A stretch of 64,000 nucleotides of DNA, taken from NCBI GenBank assembly GCA_963402885.1, contig OY727094.1:6822501-6886500 (forward strand), written 5' to 3'. This document shows, one piece after another, positions 9,132-61,763 of the stretch. Origin of the DNA: Antedon bifida (taxonomy: Eukaryota; Echinodermata; Crinoidea; Comatulida; Antedonidae). The position numbers and the translations under genes are program-made. Within the stretch, counting starts at the first letter, position 1. Every line of letters starts with the position of its first letter. The notes under the pieces are model-generated. The model was not told the DNA's origin and did no database searches. It saw nothing but the letters and a program-made list of their open reading frames with translations.

Positions 9132-12100
9132 ATGTGTATTTATCAGACGTTCTTTCTTTGCCTAATTGTTTTAAAGGCTACACTTGTATTATCAGGTATG
9201 TTTTTTTTTTCAATTAAATACAAAGGTATGCCATGGGGTTGTTAACTGAGGAGGCTAGCTTCCTGTTAGATAACTCTCGCGATGAGATGCATTTGAAATC
9301 GAATGTTCATCTGTTAAAGTTTAGTTCTAACTTGTTGTTGAATAGATGTGGAGGGAGGCATCACATGTGTATAAATACAATATAAACCATGGTTATCGTA
9401 AAATGGGGTACTTTGACATTTTTATTAATTCCAATTCCAATTTCTTTTCGCACACATCGTATTTCTTTTCTTACTCGTCGCATTTCTTTTCTTACTCGTC
9501 GTATTTCTTTTCTTACTCGTCGTATTTCTTTTCGCACTCGTCATATTTCTTTTCGTACTCGTCGCATTTCTTTTCGCACTCGTCGTATTTCTTTTCGTAA
9601 TCGTCGTATTTCTTTTCGCACTCGTCGTATTTCTTTTCGTAATCGTCGAATTTCTTTTCGTACTCGTCGTATATCTTTTAATACTCGTCGTATTTCTTTT
9701 CGCACTCGTCGTATTTCTTTTCGTAATCGTCGAATTTCTTTTCGTACTCGTCGTATTTCTCTTCTTACTCGTCGCATTTCTTTTCGTACTCGTCGTATTT
9801 CTTTTCGTAGTCGTCGTATATCTTTTAATACTCGTCGTATTTCTTTTCGCACTCGTCGCATTTCTTTTCGCACACATCGTATTTCTTTTCGTACTCGTCG
9901 TATTTCTTTTCGCACTCGTCGCATTTCTTTTCGCACTCATCGTATTTCTTTTCGCACTCGTCGTATTTCTTTTCTTACTCGTCGCATTTCTTTTCGTACT
10001 CGTCGTATTTCTTTTCGTACTCGTCGTATATCTTTTAATACTCGTCGTATTTCTTTTCGCACTCGTCGTATTTCTTTTCGCACTCGTCGTATTTCTTTTC
10101 GTACTCGTCGTATTTCTTTTCGTACTCGTCGTATTTCTTTTCGCACTCGTCGTATTTCTTTTCGCACACATCGTATTTCTTTTTGTACTCGTCGTATTTC
10201 TTTTCTTACTCGTCGTATTTATTTTCGTACTCGTCACATTTCTTTTCGCACTAATCATCGTATTTCTTTTCGCACTGATCATCGTATTTCTTTTCGCACT
10301 CGTCGTATTTATTTTCGTACTCGTCACATTTCTTTTCGTACTCGTCGTATTTCTTTTCGTACTCGTCGTATTTCTTTTCGTACTCGTCGTATTTCTTTTC
10401 GTACTCGTCGTATTTCTTTTCGTACTCGTCGTATTTCTTTTCTTACTCGTCGTATTTCTTTTCGTACTCGTCACATTTCTTTTCGTACTCGTCGTATTTC
10501 TTTTCTTTACTCGTCGTATTTCTTTTCGCACTCGTCGTATTTCTTTTCTTACTCGTCGTATTTCTTTTCGTATTCGTCGTATTTATTTTCGTACTCGTCA
10601 TATTTCTTTTCGCACACATCGTATTTTTTTTGTACTCGTCGTATTTCTTTTCTTACTCGTCGTATTTATTTTCGTACTCGTCACATTTCTTTTCGCACTG
10701 ATCATCGTATTTCTTTTCTTACTCGTCGTATTTATTTTCGTACTCGTCACATTTCTTTTCGCACTGATCATCGTATTTCTTTTCGCACTCATCGTATTTC
10801 TTTTCGCACTCATCGTATTTCTTTTCTTACTCGTCGTTCGTTTCAAACTAATATTTGTAATTATAGCATTACTTGTACTGGGCTTGGTCCTGCTTCATTC
10901 ATAGAATTACTAATGAAGCAAGTATATCAAGCGGTGATTATCGTTTGATTTAAATATTGTACATACCATACTATTTTCACTATGATGTTGAACGTATTCG
11001 TTTTCGTATCTTACATAACAGACACCAGATATGACTGAACTTTATCTTTAGTTGATAGAAGATTTTTTGTTAGAAATTAGAGACACAATGTTTAATCATT
11101 ACAATTGTAAATATCATGTATATGTATTGTGATGTGACGGATTTTATATTTTGTATGTGGCGTGCATTTCTCCAGTTAGACATTAACTCACCGGTTTGCT
11201 TCTATTTAAATAAATAAGTCAAATACAATTGTTATTAACCAATACAAAATCTAACCTAGTTTTGGTAAACATAAATCATTTGTTTTGTTCTCTCTCAATA
11301 TTATATTTTCTTACACTCGTTTACAATCTTATAATGACATTTTATGGGCTGCTGAATATGTATTGACATTTTCCTGCACTATTGAACAAAGCAGAATACA
11401 GGAAGTATAATATTAGTTTAAAAGCCTTATCTACAAATTGGACTCCATCACAATTGTGCTTTTATATTAACTTTGTTATAGCAATATCTTTATATTATAT
11501 AATAATAAGTAACTATATTATTTGACGTTATTGGTATATTTTCCCATAATCCTACCGATAAGTAAAATTGATTGTTCCATATTAATATTGTAACTGTTTC
11601 TTTTAAAAATGAATTTAGAATCTATTATGTGTACTATATATTGTATTGAGATATTGAGGTTTCAAGCTTATATTAAAAAGTGAAGGAGAATGTGCACAAT
11701 TGTCTTCAAAAGAAAGATATCGGTCATTGGGTACGAATAGGCATTATGAGAGTTAAAATTATATGTGGTTCATTAAAGGTATTAAAAAGTGTAACAGGTT
11801 ATTACAAAGTGTAACAACTTTATTACAGGTATAAAAATATGCGACAGCAGTTATTGAAAACAAGGCCATATACATGGCTGTAGTCGCGTGCTCAAGTTAG
11901 TGTTTACTGACCGACCGACCAACCGACCGACCGAACGACCAACTGACCGACATGGTGAGCTGTAGAGTCGCGTTGCACGCGACTAAAAATGTGAGGGTTT
12001 ATTACAAATTTACGAGAGGTTATTACAAAAAGCGACACCAGTTTTTACAAAAAGCATCAGGTTCTTACAAAGTGCGATTATTTATTACAAAATGCGACAC

Positions 12101-53235: not shown

Positions 53236-54205
53236 TTGTTATTCAATTCAATTCAATTCACTTTTATTTCAGAACAAATTCCATCATAACAAATAAAAAA
53301 ATCTATACCACATGTCGCACATAATAATGCCGTCGGAAAACCGTCGGTTTTCAACTAGGAGTGAAAAAAAACCAAAAACATTATTATGGCTATACTGATA
53401 CAAATTAACATACGTACAAGTATACATGAAATTATGTATACAGAAGTTCAATCCATTTTCTATGCAACTTTGAATCTTTTAGAATTCGAGAAAAAACATT
53501 ATTAAAACAGTATTACAGCTTTTTTCAATTTTTGTTTTGAAACAAAAAATTGATTTCCGAATGTACTCATAGAAGGAGGGAACATGGTTATCAACAAACA
53601 TTGCACTAGCACTACAGCTCCTTGAGCGTTTTAAAATCTTTCTAAATGCGTTATTATAACAGACCTGTAATGACTTCATAGTTTTTACATTAAAATCGCA
53701 CCATAAGGCCGCACAATACATACTAATACAGTATGACTTAAACAAAGTAATCTTAACATCCGTTGAGCATTTACTAAATTTTCTACAAAGAGAGTTACCT
53801 CTAATACATAATGATCGATATTGCCTTTTAATATCCAGTTCGTCCCTAGTATCATTACTAATAACACAACCAAGGTAGGTAGTGGATTGAACGTAATTTA
53901 GTTCTTTACCACATAGAACAGTAACATAATTACCATTCAGTTTTCTTTTCCTAGGGCAAAAGCACATGCAAATTGATTTTTTTGAATTATATAATACATC
54001 AAAGTAATTAGCAAAATCCCCACATATGTTGACCATCTTTTGGAGGGCATCTAAAGAGGGCGCAAGTAACACCATGTCGTCTGCATAACTTAAGTTGTTG
54101 AACTTTGTATTATTGAGCTCACAACCAAAATTACAATCACTAAGCATACTGTTTAAATTGTCAATGTAAACATTATATAACAGAGGAGACATAACACCAC
54201 CCTGT
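53236..54205 (-). pseudogene. 5'-truncated LINE with reverse-transcriptase domain
   Basis: A minus-strand frame of 237 codons (54192-53479), extended upstream to a QGGV start, encodes the C-terminal half of a non-LTR reverse transcriptase: GGVMSPLLYNVYID, the catalytic SYADDMVLLAPS, TTYLGCVI, then R.NSLCRKFSKC and the trailing 'thumb' region. A stop precedes QGGV, so the endonuclease and first RT blocks are missing, as expected of 5' truncation during target-primed insertion. The 3' UTR ends in (AATTG)n at 53240-53260. The pattern suits the CR1/L2/Rex1 group. The long open frame suggests a fairly recent insertion. It lies between SCLY and the DED gene. Confidence 0.8.
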
Positions 54206-55004
54206 TATATTTTTGTTTATGTTAATACCATGTTTATTGTTTATTTTTGGTAAAGACGAAAGAAAATTTAATTTTACAACCATGCCACCAAACGTTCACC
54301 TGTTTCAGATCCTTTAATTCAAACAAAATGTCGATGTTGCCAAATGATTGGAAATTAAAAAAAGAATAGATGGAAATACCAGAACTATATTTAGGATGAC
54401 GTTATTGCTCATAAAGTATGCATCATTTATTGTATTGTTGTATAATGAATTTACTGACGATTTTGACGCTACTGAGTAGAATAAACCTTGAATACGCCAT
54501 CTTGACAAAAGGTATACTGTATGTTACTAGGTATACTAGTCTGGGTTTAAATCGACGCCTATCGTGAGTATGCCTGAATTATGTACTTTTACTTATATAA
54601 TATATTAAACCTACTTTAGGCTTTATAAGTATTGTGACATCTGTGTGAAAATTAATGAAATAGTACAAAAAAATACGAAACAAATTTCATGTAACTAAGT
54701 TGAAATCAAATTAACAATCATCTATTTTTATTATACCTCCATGAATCAACAACAAAATCTAAAGCATTGCGGTCAGGTAAATCCTAAGGAACGAAAGTAG
54801 CAGTGTTTCGTGACGGTAGACGAAGACCGAACGTTAAATCAACTAACAATTCCAATATAATATAATAATAAAAGACACGGTTTTTGACTTATGTATTATA
54901 CGCAGGCGCAGATTAATTTGTATAAATTATCGTCTTTTTCGTCTCCGTCCCGAAGCGGAAGCACAATTAACGGCTTTTATTTATCTCAGCAAACTTTCCC
55001 AGGT
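54206..55004. other. No gene seen
   Basis: AT-rich sequence between the LINE and the 61-bp repeat. A 79-codon frame at 54891 runs into the repeat and has no domain. Confidence 0.5.
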
Positions 55005-55930
55005 AGCAAGCCCATATGGGACGACCCATGTCTCACGTATCTGGGCATAACCATATGGGCTTTTTACATGTTATTTCTATGGGACCCATGTGGGGAAAAC
55101 CATGGGCCAGCCCACATTAAACCCATATGAATACCATCTGGGCAATTTCATGGGTTTGCCCACATAAAACCTACATGGGACCCATACTCTAAATATCTGG
55201 GCAGGTACAATGGAGTCGCCCATATTAAACCTCCATGGGGCCCATTATGCCAAATATCTGGGGAGCATCATATAGGCTTGCCCACTTATAAAGTACATGG
55301 GCCCATACGAAAAAAATATGGGCAGATACAAATAGGCTTGGCCACATCAAATCTCCATGAGACACCTATATGCCAAATATCTGGGCGGATACATATGGGC
55401 CTGTCTACTTAAAACCTACATGGGGCCCATATGCCAAATATCTTGGCGGATACATATGGGCCTGTCTACTTAAAACCTACATGAGGCCCATATGCTAAAT
55501 TTCTGGGCAGGTACATATGGGGTTGCCCATATTAAATCTTTATGAAGCCCATATGCCAAATATCTGGGCAGATACATTATGGGGTTTTCTACATCAAGCC
55601 TCTATGGGGCCCATATACCAAATATATGGGCAGGTACATATGGGCCCCTCACACTAAACTTCCATGGGATCCATATGCCAAATAACAGGGCATATTCATA
55701 TGTGCATGTCTATTTATAACCTACATGGGACCCATATATGCTAAAAATATTGCCACATACATGATCTTGCCCACATCAAAACAACTCCATGGGGCCCATA
55801 TGCAAATATCTGGGCAGATACATAAAAGTTTGTCCTCATTCATGGGCCCCATATACCAAATGTCTATGCATATATGGCATTTGGCAAGATCTGGGCAAGA
55901 TTATGTGGGCTTCCTATATCAAACCCATAT
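55005..55930 (+). repeat. 61-bp tandem repeat with CATATGGG palindromes
   Basis: About 15 diverged copies of a unit like CCAAATATCTGGGCAGATAC, ATATGGGCCTGCCCAC, then AACCTACATGGGGCCCATAT. Period is close to 61 bp (for example 55373, 55435, 55497, 55558). It lies about 190 bp upstream of the DED coding start, so it is in that gene's 5' intron or flank. Confidence 0.85.
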
Positions 55931-56117
55931 GTAAAATATTTCAGTGTTCCGCTGTCTAGTCCACGTCAAACATATACACGAGTCGGGCTCATTTTCAAAA
56001 GGATATTTTTATGATTTTTAAAAAATGAATTACTTTGAATTGAAAACTCATACAGCAATTTAGCCAAATTTTTTTTTGTTAAAAGTCTAAAAGTATTATT
56101 TTATTTACAGAATAAAA

Positions 56118-59100
56118 ATGGATATCAATTTCCAAACGTTTCTAAAGGAACTTAGCAAAGTCTATAATGGTGAAACGGTCAAACTGCTGAGAATGCTTCT
56201 ATTTGGTATTCTACCTATTGGAGAGCTAGATGGTGAGGAAGGAAAATCAGCTTTTGACTTATTTAATAAACTTACTAGTCATGGATATATTTCTGAAAAT
56301 AATGTGACTCTGCTACTGGACATTGCTGAAGTAACTAACCAGGCATCAGCGATAGATCGTATAAACAAGTACAAGAATACTATTCAAAGCACTGACGCTT
56401 CAGGTGCTACACTAACAGCGTATCGCAAAGCACTATTTCAAGCGCTCACTAACGTCGGAAAAGACGACTTAAATGCTGTGATTAGTTTCTACCAACTGAG
56501 TAAATTTAGATTTGACAACATATGGGATGTTGTGTATCACATTGAGAAAGAAGGAATCTTGGACTCACAAGAAAACTATGAAACATTTGCAAAACATCTA
56601 AATAATGTGGCACAAAGTTGTTTAAAAGGTATGTTTACCACATAGGCCTGCTATATCCATTGTTAGTCTGACTACAGAGCAGGAACTTGAAATACATCTT
56701 AGCACTAGCCGCTATACTCCCTAAAATGATAGTTTTGCTCAGGGTAGAAATAAAATGAACAAATAAAATATTGATGTTTTTAAACAATACTTTTACTATT
56801 TGATGCTGCACCTCAGTATTCTATCATTAGCCTACCCCTTTTATTCCACATCTCTGAACTCCCGAGAGTTGTGGATTGATTGGGAATCAGAGATGAAAAT
56901 ACGACAAGTTATTACCTTGTGTTTAATGATGATATGACACTTACATTAAGTCTATTTCGAGAGTCAAATAGATTCTATATTTTATCGATCTTGACTAAAT
57001 ATTTTTGAGGAAAAAATTGTTAGGTATAATAGTAATATGCCTACATAACATCAATTTATTAAACATGTTTTCTCTGTCCTTAAATAATAATATGGTACTT
57101 ATAAGGTGCCCTTCCCGAAAGATCAGAGCGCCGTACATGCATCAAATACATAACATGTTCAATCTTCAAATTACAAGAATTAAAGCTTACAATAAAAATA
57201 ATTAGGTTAAAATGTTGAAGTATACACAATCCTTAAATAAAACTAAAATAATTTCCAGAAAAAATACTTATTATTATTAATGAAATTACGGAAACTAATG
57301 AGTCTTAAAAAGACGTCTAAAAATTTCTGATTCACGTATGCAAGCAGGAAGACCATTTCATAACTTTATGTATTCAAATTGTTATGTTTATATAAAATTA
57401 CAGAAACACCTTATCAAACACCGTCACCAATACCGACTTCATCACTGGTACAAACATTATCCGAAGACTTTGCGCCATATGGTATGTGAAATATTGTAAT
57501 GTTTCTAGAATTTTTAGCAGTGAGAATCTTAAGATGATTTCACATGGTCAATATTTTTTTTCACAATTGCCTAATTAATGTGCCGTTCTATGCGATGGAT
57601 CAGTATAAGCAATAGCTGTATTATGTGTTGTTACACTGAATTTTATTTTAGTATTTTTTCTGTAAAACTTACTAAATTCATTTTTAGCTCTTACAGTAGA
57701 TGCACTAAAGCAGCTCAATGGTTTCTCAAAATGGGAAAGTAAGTTTTTTTTCTAGCCATGTCAATATCTGTCGGGGAAGATTGCCGTTGGGAGGGGGATG
57801 CTAGTGGGTTTTTAGGGTATATATTTTTTTCAATAGTTTTTAAAACCGTAGACCGTGCCTGAGTGTTCTATGTCAATTAAGTAATTGCTTCATTCGGATT
57901 TTATAAAATAAAAAAAACGGATGGAGGGAGCGAGATTTAGATGGATGGAAACGGGAAGAAACCTTTTTAGAAAGTATGAGAGACCATCGTAGAAAAAATC
58001 AAGGTATGTAGGCTAATATTTTATTTTCTAGCAATAGTCAAGCAGTGGAATGGATGTTGCTTCTGGGAGTGAGGCTATGTAACTTTGTCAATAGTTTGTT
58101 TTACAACAACGTAATTGAATGTTGCTGAATGATCAGAGTCATTTGTTAAGCAATGGCTGTATTTATTTTTTTATAAAAGTCTATAATAGGGTTTTCATTA
58201 AGGTTTAAAGAGATTGGGGTTTGTTCTAAAATTTACCAAACAAAACTCTTTTTTATAAATTATTTTTCACCCTTTTTAGATGAAGTATACTGGACTAATT
58301 TGTCACAGTATGTATCAAATCAAGTGTTCTTGTTCTGTTCCCAACCACATCTGTAATTAACCATTTTTCTTCTGTACCAATGTGCCGTTTAATTAATTTA
58401 CCGTTTTTAGATTTTTTAATTCTATTTTATCTCTATGATAATTAACTTAATAACTGCCAAAATAAGCAATCTTCAATTCACCAGTCTGACATAATATACT
58501 TTACATTAATAAAAAGTTCTATGTATACAACCGTGTTGTGCTAACGTACTCCAAATACAGCTTGTGGCTGCTGCTATAATCGCTATTGTATATTCATAGG
58601 AATAGTAGCAATGAATTTGTCTGTTTCAATTTTAATTTATTTACCTTTTTTTAGATTCTCTAATTCGGTTTTTCCAGTATGATGATAACTTAAAAACTGC
58701 CATATTATGCATATCACTGGCAAAATATAATTTACATACATATGAAATGTATCCTCTTTAAATTCCTCAAGTTGTAAAAAATAAAGCGTTCCATACAATC
58801 GTGTTTGGCTTTAAATACACCTTGCGGCTGCTGATACTTGGTATGTTGTAGGAATAGTAACAATGAGAATTGTGAATAGTTTTTTTATAACAACCTAATC
58901 GAATGTTTTGAGTCATGATAAGTTTTGGCTTAATTTGGTATTATAGAAAGTCTACATTGGGGCGAGATTGTCATTATTTTTAATGTAAAACTTACTGAAC
59001 ATTTTTGTAAAATTATTGTTCTCCTTTTTAGAAATAATAGAAGAAGCTAAAGGTATGTAGGCTATTGTTTTATTTTCTAGCAATAGTCAAGCAGTGGAAT

Positions 59101-61763
59101 GGATGTTGCTTCTGGGAGTGAGGCTATATAACTTTGTCAATAGTTTTTTTTTTACAACAACATAATTGAATGTTACTGAATGATCAAAGTCATTTGTTAA
59201 GCAATGGCTGTATTTATTTTTTTTTTTTATAAAAAGTTTATTATAGGGTTTTCATTAAGGTGTAAAAAGAGTGGGGTTTGTTCTAAAATTTACCAAACAA
59301 AACTCATTGTTATAAAATATTTTTAACCCTTCTTAGATGAAGTATCAAAATTACATGGAAGTATACTAGACTAAATTTGTCACAGTAAAATCAGTCAATA
59401 TCAATGAAGTTAGAAGTTGCCACTGGGAGGGCACATGTCGATGTTGTTTAGAGTATTATAAACTATTATATTGTTATCTAGTTATACTGTTATATAGTTT
59501 CTTTGAAAGTGGCTGAATACTTTTGGTTCATTTGAATTATAAGAAAATCTGTTTGACGTATAAACATTTAAACCTTCTTTGCAGAGAACCAAAAAAATAA
59601 AGATTGGTTACATATCTGAGTGGCTAGGATGGTTGGGTAGTCATTTCAATGACAGAAAACAATTGTTTATAAAAATATATATTATATACGATTAGTAGCA
59701 ATGTGATTTAATATATTTCTTTAATAACAAACCTAACCAAATGTTCCCGATGTTATCAGTCATGTAAAGTAATGGCCTCATTTGATTTCTACAATTCAAT
59801 TGGGGTTACTGAGAATGTGAAATAATGTATCAAATCAAGTGTTCTTGTTCTGTTCCCAACCACATCTGTAATTAACCATTTTTCTTCTGTACCAATGTGC
59901 CGATTAATTAATTTACCGTTTTTATATTTTTTAATTCGATTTTTTCCCTATGATAATAAATTAATAACTGTCAAAATATGCAATCTTCAATTCACCAGTC
60001 TGACATAAAATACTTTACATTAATAAAAAGTTTCATACAACCGTGTTGTGCTGAATCTTACACCTCGCGACTGCTGCTATAATCGGTATTGTATATTCCT
60101 AGGAATACTGTAGTAGCAATGAGAATTGAGAACTGAATTTGTCTGTTTCGATTTTAAATTATTTACGTTTTTTTATAGATTTTCTAATTCGATTTTTTCT
60201 GTATGATAATAACCTAAAAACTGCCATATTATGCTTATCACCGGTCCAATATAAAATACATCGGTATGTGAGCTATTTTCATATACATAGAAGCAATAAG
60301 AATTGATTTTTATAACAACCCGATCGAATTTTTGAGTCATAATAAGTAATGGCTTCATTTGGTTTTATATAAAGTCTACATTAGGGTGAGATGGTGGTTG
60401 TTTTTATTGTAAAACGTACTGAACATACTCAGGTTTGTAAAATTATTTTTCCTCTTTTTACAATTATTCGAAAAAAACCGTAGATCACATGAAGGTATGT
60501 AGGCTATGCTTTATTTTTCTAGGACTAATCAATATCTTTAGGATACACACAACTTTGTCAATAGTTTTTTTTAAACCAAATTAAATGTTCCTGAATAATT
60601 TGTATTGAGTCACTTGTTAAACAATGGCTGTGGTTTTTTTAAAGTCTAAACTACTGGGGTTTTAATTATGGAGTCAAAAGAGGAGTTTTGTCTGTAAAAC
60701 ATACAAAATAAAACTCATTTTTATAGAATATTTGTTAGCCCAAAAGAATTTAGAATTTGATGTAATGTATCAACAACATAAAGTGTCTTTGTTCCTGCTG
60801 TATTTAAAACTGATTTTGTTTTTACAATCACACTTACAAATAAACATTTTCATTCTGTAACAATGTGCAGATTAATTAGATATGAATTTATTTACTATTT
60901 TCAAATTTTCTAATTCGATTTTCCTCTATGATGATAACTTATTAACTAGCAAATTATGCAATCTTAAATTAATCAGTCCAATATAAAATACGTGTTAAAT
61001 ATCCCCTCTTTAAATTTACTAAGCTAAACATAAAGGATTTCATACAACCGTTTTCTAGGATACAATATACTCCAAATACCCGCCCGAAATGACCAATCAT
61101 TGATTCTTCGCCCTTAATAACTGGTACCACACAACACATTATGAACCTTCCAATTAGCAACTTAAATGATAGACGGATACTGTTTATAGATACATAATAT
61201 TGAATAAAAATGTTCTTTTTGCAGAGTTTTTTTTGAAATTTTTGAGTCCTTTGTCGAATTGGTTTGATGAAAGAAATTATACTGATCAGTTGAGGGTGTT
61301 GTACAAAGACAAAATACCATCTGTCAGCGCTCTACGAGAAGCTAAAAGCACAATGGATCTGTTCAAACAACTGGAAAACGAGGGCCATCTTTCTGCTACC
61401 AACACAAAAATTCTTGTCGACACGATTAATGTCACTGGTACTAAAGGTGTTTTGGGGGTCAGCAAACACTTGCAAGACATATATGATAAAGCAGACCATC
61501 GTGTAACATCTTTCTCGTCGTATCGTCAATTGCTGATGCAGTTCGGTAATTCACTTTCTGAAAGTGATGTAACAAAGCTCTCTGCTCTACTAAATGGAAG
61601 TAGAAATGAGTGGACTGTGATATTAGATCTTGAAGAAAGTGGTATCCTAAATGAAGATGAGTTGCAACAATTTATCAAACATCTGAAGGAGAACGGGATA
61701 CTTGGTGGTGCCAAAACGTTGGAACGGAAACGGAGGAAGACAAACCACCCAACGAAATGCTGA
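56118..61763 (+). CDS. Four-DED protein: two tandem death-effector-domain pairs, no caspase domain
   Basis: Exons: 56118-56628, 57404-57481, 57688-57738, 59032-59052, 61225-61763. All introns are GT/AG in phase 1, giving 399 aa. An acceptor (TTTACAG, 56110) just before ATG implies an upstream 5' UTR exon. Residues 1-170 resemble the N-terminal DED pair of caspase-8 and c-FLIP (FQTFLKELSKVY, LFNKLTSHGYISE, LLLDIAEV, LTAYRKALFQ, HIEKEGIL). A Pro/Ser/Thr-rich linker spans about 171-220. Residues 221-385 repeat the same pair (LFKQLENEGHLSATN, FSSYRQLLMQFG, LEESGILNEDEL). A basic tail, ERKRRK, ends at a stop. Such domains build death-receptor and NF-kB signalling assemblies. With no protease or death domain it could be an adaptor or decoy (inference). 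The 21-bp exon is optional without changing phase. It could instead be two adjacent genes. Confidence 0.72.
57985..61050 (+). repeat. Duplicated intronic units with microexon-like sites (DED gene)
   Basis: Three diverged units begin at the shared GTATGTAGGCTA donor word (58004, 59053, 60494). Units 1 and 2 share GCAATAGTCAAGCAGTGGAA, GATGTTGCTTCTGGGAGTGA, ACCCTT-TTAGATGAAGTAT and GTTCTGTTCCCAACCACATC. Each start is preceded by a short acceptor-to-donor segment. The one at 59032-59052 is open in the required phase. Those at about 57970-58003 and 60465-60493 contain stops or lack an AG acceptor. This looks like tandem duplication of a small-exon unit with decay of two copies. Confidence 0.65.

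Follow-up and report, generated by a model that had tools for sequence, protein, structure and literature searches.

We describe a gene in a 64,000-nucleotide stretch of the Antedon bifida genome (the window: positions 6822501 to 6886500 of contig C7 in the 315.6-Mb, 27-contig assembly G000) that, judged from sequence comparison, very probably is a single gene of a kind encoding four death effector domains (DEDs). Its predicted product, read from the plus strand between 56118 and 61763, is a DED-only protein in which an N-type DED pair is connected to a C-type DED pair by a short, flexible linker whose length may vary. The gene appears to be one of at least five family members in this genome, assembled from two ancient cassettes, each a DED pair bordered in phase 1; we put the probability of this reading at roughly 60%. 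We regard its members as probable adaptors or brakes in a network of cell-death and immune signaling that has expanded greatly.

Gene model and identity of the four domains

The gene model runs from an ATG at 56118 to a TGA at 61761 to 61763 in five exons separated exclusively by phase-1 introns, and encodes exactly 399 amino acids. With start codon, splice signals, intron phases, and stop codon all located, the exon chain joins in phase, as an initial sequence-only reading of this DNA had claimed. The first coding exon (56118 to 56628) carries the N-type pair (DED1 and DED2, or D1 and D2) and ends in phase 1 at the donor AAAAG/gtatgt (slash, exon border), and the last exon (61225 to 61763) carries the C-type pair (DED3 and DED4, or D3 and D4), a basic tail, RKRRK, and the stop. 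Between them lie three short exons that begin and end in phase 1: a linker exon rich in Pro, Ser, and Thr (57404 to 57481; G+C of 0.42, versus 0.30 in the intron), a second linker exon (57688 to 57738, with an alternative acceptor that would move its start to 57697), and a candidate microexon of 21 nt (59032 to 59052), which was already part of the 399 amino acids of the sequence-only reading. Another candidate microexon of 33 nt (57971 to 58003, likewise phase 1 at both ends), overlooked in that reading, contains an in-phase ATG. Skipping the 21-nt microexon would give a protein of 392 amino acids, and using both would give 410. A strict splice scan of the intron, in which two open candidates in phase turned up on the coding strand and one on the reverse control, proves nothing by itself, and it failed to pick up the 78-nt exon and the 33-nt microexon. 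A 3′ splice site (tttacag/aataaaa, its acceptor listed) leaves 7 untranslated bases (56111 to 56117) ahead of the ATG, and an untranslated 5′ exon therefore likely lies somewhere upstream.

Both long exons were identified as DED exons by the PF01335 hidden Markov model search that the sequence-only reading had proposed, the last-exon pair scoring over the cut-off of 35.9 bits (39.1 bits, E = 8.7e-10) and the exon 1 pair just under it (35.2 bits, E = 1.5e-8). As single domains, D1 (2.7e-6) and D3 (9.5e-7) match Pfam, D4 matches weakly (0.024) and alone also matches four other families at 0.036 to 0.19, and D2 has no match. We take D2 and D4 to be DEDs because the pairs align as wholes, both to the tandem DED of caspase-8 and to each other. 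A profile of the two window pairs matches the caspase-8 tandem DED in the PDB over positions 4 to 154 (E = 6.3e-7), caspase-8 tandem DEDs being its best PDB matches, and exon 1 matches the last exon at E = 7e-14, which bears out the earlier claim of two copies of a DED pair. In phmmer searches of the PDB, exon 1 reached caspase-8 at 0.0018, calbindin at 0.004 was taken as a chance match, and the last exon alone gave 13 weak matches, with no DED among them. The claim that no caspase domain is present also held: after the stop at 61761 to 61763, no caspase match was found in 10 of the 11 plus-strand open reading frames (ORFs) of at least 40 amino acids up to the window end. ORFs tested around the gene gave no match to NACHT.

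Two cassette types and their combinations across the genome

The sequence-only reading had derived the gene from a duplication of the whole pair, and such a duplication is real, with D1-D3 and D2-D4 comparisons reaching z scores of 10.6 and 11.0 (0 of 2,000 shuffles as high) and the remaining four domain comparisons giving 2.3, 1.1, −0.2, and 1.2. It was not, as that reading implied, a local event that created this gene. The 21 pair exons that we aligned divide into 13 resembling exon 1 (N-type) and 8 resembling the last exon (C-type). In a tree of 28 rows (14 N-type, 10 C-type, and 4 others; 30 rows minus 2 repeats, L010 and L028), all 10 C-type rows fall on one side of a branch supported at 97/100, so the split between the types is older than most copies. 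Because of this split, and because both types also occur apart in other loci, we regard the duplication as old. The N and C profiles were made from the same exons that they score, which makes the bit gap between them partly circular, a caveat that does not apply to the tree or to pairwise identities. Among the loci fetched from the genome (numbered L001 onward), the closest relative of exon 1 is an N-type exon in L013 at 33.12 Mb on C7 (about 60%), and the closest relatives of the window's last exon are C-type exons on C15 (47 to 53%).

DEDs are abundant in this genome, with at least 118 matches at E of 1e-3 or better when 150 of 548 candidates were scored (rows that do not include the window's two DED exons). 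Many are clustered: C15:2.86-3.30 Mb and C7:33.1-35.7 Mb each contain 13 of the matches listed, C14:17.59-17.63 Mb contains 7, and C13:13.18-13.26 Mb contains 6. On the minus strand of C13, an N-type exon precedes a C-type exon at four loci (L019, L020, L031, and L030/L032). With splice sites picked by phase and context, L019 and L020 can each be read through to a stop by way of a single short phase 1-1 linker exon, giving proteins of 396 and 371 amino acids that align end to end with the window protein at 34% identity over 396 columns (E = 2e-62) and 30% over 401 columns (E = 5e-46), respectively; L031 and L030/L032 each show a donor and an acceptor, both in phase 1, together with a linker candidate that keeps the frame and a stop. 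The layout of N-type pair, phase-1 linker, C-type pair, and stop is thus present at five loci, the window included; the sequence-only reading had missed these relatives. By tblastn, 45 pattern stretches from bacterial and archaeal genomes and 54 from viral contigs yielded no relative.

The window and the fetched loci together hold 16 N-type exons, a number that includes one with an early stop (L018:4313-4813), and a C-type exon comes next in 5 of the 16, which is not a genome rate, the fetched loci having been drawn from DED clusters. The other 11 comprise 1 that precedes a NACHT exon (L013/L029), 7 in a kinase/MAM array (L016 to L018), those of L023 and L024, which are followed by other DED exons (detected with Pfam and unscored by the pair profiles), and L020:2685-3272, which has no partner in the sequence read; an additional N-type fragment is cut at the edge of L032. 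In the array (C14:17593000-17622900), tyrosine-kinase-like exons (L016:3-851 and 9137-9901) have N-type pair exons after them within about 200 nt and MAM-domain exons are also included, an arrangement that perhaps represents receptor kinases with a DED-pair tail.

Both cassette types also occur in front of NACHT exons. At L013/L029 (C7:33.12 Mb), a NACHT exon (6e-21) lies 3.7 kb downstream of an N-type exon, and at L015 (C7:34.15 Mb), one (7e-21) lies downstream of a C-type exon; in both cases the two exons share a strand. The borders at L015 are a phase-1 donor (AAG/GTATGT) and a phase-1 acceptor; for L013/L029 the scan lists an acceptor and no donor matching its pattern, and the donor AAAAG/GTAGAT was read by eye. 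These two loci are apparent NOD-like receptors using the N-type and C-type cassettes, respectively, and since the same cassettes stand before NACHT, the four-DED gene looks like a receptor front end in which a second pair and a stop replace NACHT. The window gene could be a truncated NOD-like receptor that lost NACHT, captured a second DED cassette, and is now drifting or already a pseudogene, an idea in keeping with the position of its closest N-type relative among the fetched loci (L013, about 60%) 3.7 kb 5′ of a NACHT exon. We consider this improbable, because the two pairs are open over 170 and 178 codons (chance below 1e-6 for each at local composition) and the four-DED layout recurs at five loci, so that the gene looks maintained rather than a relic.

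The locus might instead hold two neighboring two-DED genes or isoforms, one ending after exon 1 or at 57738 and the other starting in the intron. Reading on past the end of exon 1 runs into a stop at 56643 to 56645, the 33-nt microexon at 57971 to 58003 offers an in-phase ATG, and the C-type exons of L009, L010, L012, and L026 resemble two-DED-only ORFs. Against this arrangement, to which we give little chance, the last exon lacks a usable start of its own, having no in-frame ATG upstream of the middle of DED3, and the N-then-C order with phase-1 borders is repeated at four other loci. On these two grounds the proposal of one gene with four DEDs is supported. The four two-DED-like loci lie on C15 and C16, and each of their C-type exons lacks a matched donor and places an ATG at the domain boundary. 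Two successive C-type pair exons on one strand at L014:2667-5020 (C7:28.65 Mb) possibly form a C-then-C four-DED gene.

DED exons adjoin further domains elsewhere in the genome. On C10, DED exons have AAA/NB-ARC matches within their own ORF or the following one (L004 and L021) and TPR repeats in neighboring ORFs (L021 and L027), and the ORF layouts of L006 and L022 resemble those of L004, L021, and L027. At L008 (C9:25.497 Mb), a DED exon adjoins an ORF that gives matches to DEAD helicase and to the RIG-I C-terminal family, perhaps a RIG-I-like receptor with a DED.

Binding surfaces, linker, and proposed function

We compared the pairs with the surfaces through which DED proteins are known to interact. 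The RxDL motif, an E/D-RxDL charge triad that with a hydrophobic patch is described as conserved among DED proteins (PMC4558505), is absent from the 399 amino acids, and no Arg occupies the site aligned to RxDL of caspase-8 (Arg71 and Asp73) in any of the 21 pairs. RDDL is present elsewhere in 3 of the 21, and the first N-type exon of L020 (7541-8065) has an Asp at the second RxDL site, without the Arg. The position of caspase-8 Phe122 holds Phe in 0 of 21 pairs and that of Tyr8 holds Tyr in 0 of 21 (the L019 C-type pair has a gap there), while all 21 have Leu at that of Leu25; the numbers of Tyr8 and Phe122 come from papers, and those of Arg71, Asp73, and Leu25 were counted from the alignment. 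By profile the window domains are still DEDs despite the missing RxDL, and the loss of the RxDL, Phe122, and Tyr8 positions suggests a DED scaffold with binding surfaces of another kind. The F122A mutant of caspase-8 still dimerizes and forms filaments, but its ability to rescue Fas-induced death is severely impaired (PMC6233201); with neither the RxDL Arg nor Phe122, caspase-8-like behavior of the window protein cannot be assumed, which bears on the bridging or capping of DED filaments that the sequence-only reading had suggested. A canonical relative of c-FLIP or of a caspase-8 short form, one that acts on FADD via the standard DED surfaces, would fit the best PDB profile matches (caspase-8 tandem DEDs) and the DED-only makeup of short c-FLIP forms (PMC4558505), but is very unlikely given that all 21 pairs lack the RxDL Arg, the Phe122 Phe, and the Tyr8 Tyr and that an RxDL-keeping DED pair exists elsewhere in the genome beside a Death domain. 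That pair (L028:4566-5962, C11:9.355 Mb; 105.5 bits), in which the motif of L001/L028 reads NRLDL and which has a Death-domain exon downstream, may belong to a canonical adaptor or caspase-8-like gene.

The RKRRK tail, which the sequence-only reading had proposed as a nuclear-targeting signal, occurs at none of the 7 other C-type ends examined; it may be a local feature, and the nuclear idea is weak.

The intron region between 57541 and 61054 contains diverged direct repeats on the plus strand, with copies about 1 to 1.5 kb apart, the spacing of a tandem array; the sequence-only reading had overlooked these as well. The donor context AAGGTATGTAGGCTA is preserved in three of these copies, and in the third (near 60470 to 60494) the matching acceptor is lost through a change of TTTTTAG to TTTTTAC. 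Because the candidate microexons sit within the array, linker length may differ between transcripts.

The window protein most likely has a nonenzymatic role. Each pair would recognize DEDs of its own type in this animal's sensors and effectors, so that a single molecule would connect, or hold in check, two sorts of DED assembly, much as CARD-only and pyrin-only proteins do in mammals; the effect may be activating or inhibiting. A further and distinctly more tentative proposal is that four-DED proteins form a natural class, assembled from two pair types that are not interchangeable, that couples N-type and C-type assembly codes in an animal with DED-NACHT receptors of either type; a member would then cross-connect receptor filaments or sit on them as a two-headed cap, its reach tuned by the microexons in its linker.

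Sequence around the gene has features of its own. Directly 5′ of exon 1, at 55000 to 55960, a unit read by eye as catatgggcc...atctgggca is repeated in what is likely a promoter or a 5′ intron, and a reverse-transcriptase fragment (Pfam, 3e-10) lies farther upstream on the minus strand at 53479 to 54204. Pfam also places fibrinogen-like exons (14347 and 27246) and a PAN exon (21024) between 14347 and 27500, and similar ORFs recur by eye to about 35 kb, suggesting a cluster of fibrinogen-related genes. An Rfam scan of the window returned nothing at gathering score.

Comparison with known systems

A close counterpart is the tandem DED of caspase-8 (PDB 5H31 and others), which also consists of two consecutive DEDs and is matched by our profile over both; the window protein differs from caspase-8 in having two pairs, no caspase domain found, no RxDL, and no Phe at the Phe122 position. 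Viral FLIPs are without the caspase part. Short forms of c-FLIP are likewise DED-only and devoid of protease activity (PMC4558505). Both have a single pair, whereas the window protein has two and does not keep RxDL and the hydrophobic patch. DED proteins named in the same review have one or two DEDs each, as do bivalve caspase-8 forms, two of which have an added Death domain (PMC7836458). No four-DED protein was found in the open-licence literature searched; one may have been reported elsewhere.

DED-NACHT receptors are known from amphioxus, sea urchin, and Nematostella (PMC2575513), and work on amphioxus and other animals describes DED-NACHT proteins, DED enrichment, and new DED combinations (PMC2575513, PMC2246300, PMC12373286, PMC3196919, PMC8195603). 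The genome studied here likewise has DED-pair exons before NACHT exons, and the window gene departs from that design by carrying another DED pair, and then a stop, where NACHT would be expected. An engineered tandem-DED FADD (2DED) offers a precedent for added DED copies, which altered assembly and caspase-8 activation in cells (PMC3614778). That construct is artificial and repeats FADD's own DED, whereas the window protein would present four diverged natural DEDs. The four-DED family, together with the placement of both pair types before NACHT, amounts to a natural test of partner choice in DED assembly. CARD-only and pyrin-only proteins serve in mammals as domain-only regulators of receptor and adaptor assemblies; they embody the same idea in other domain classes, and the four-DED family suggests an independent origin of such regulators in the DED class.

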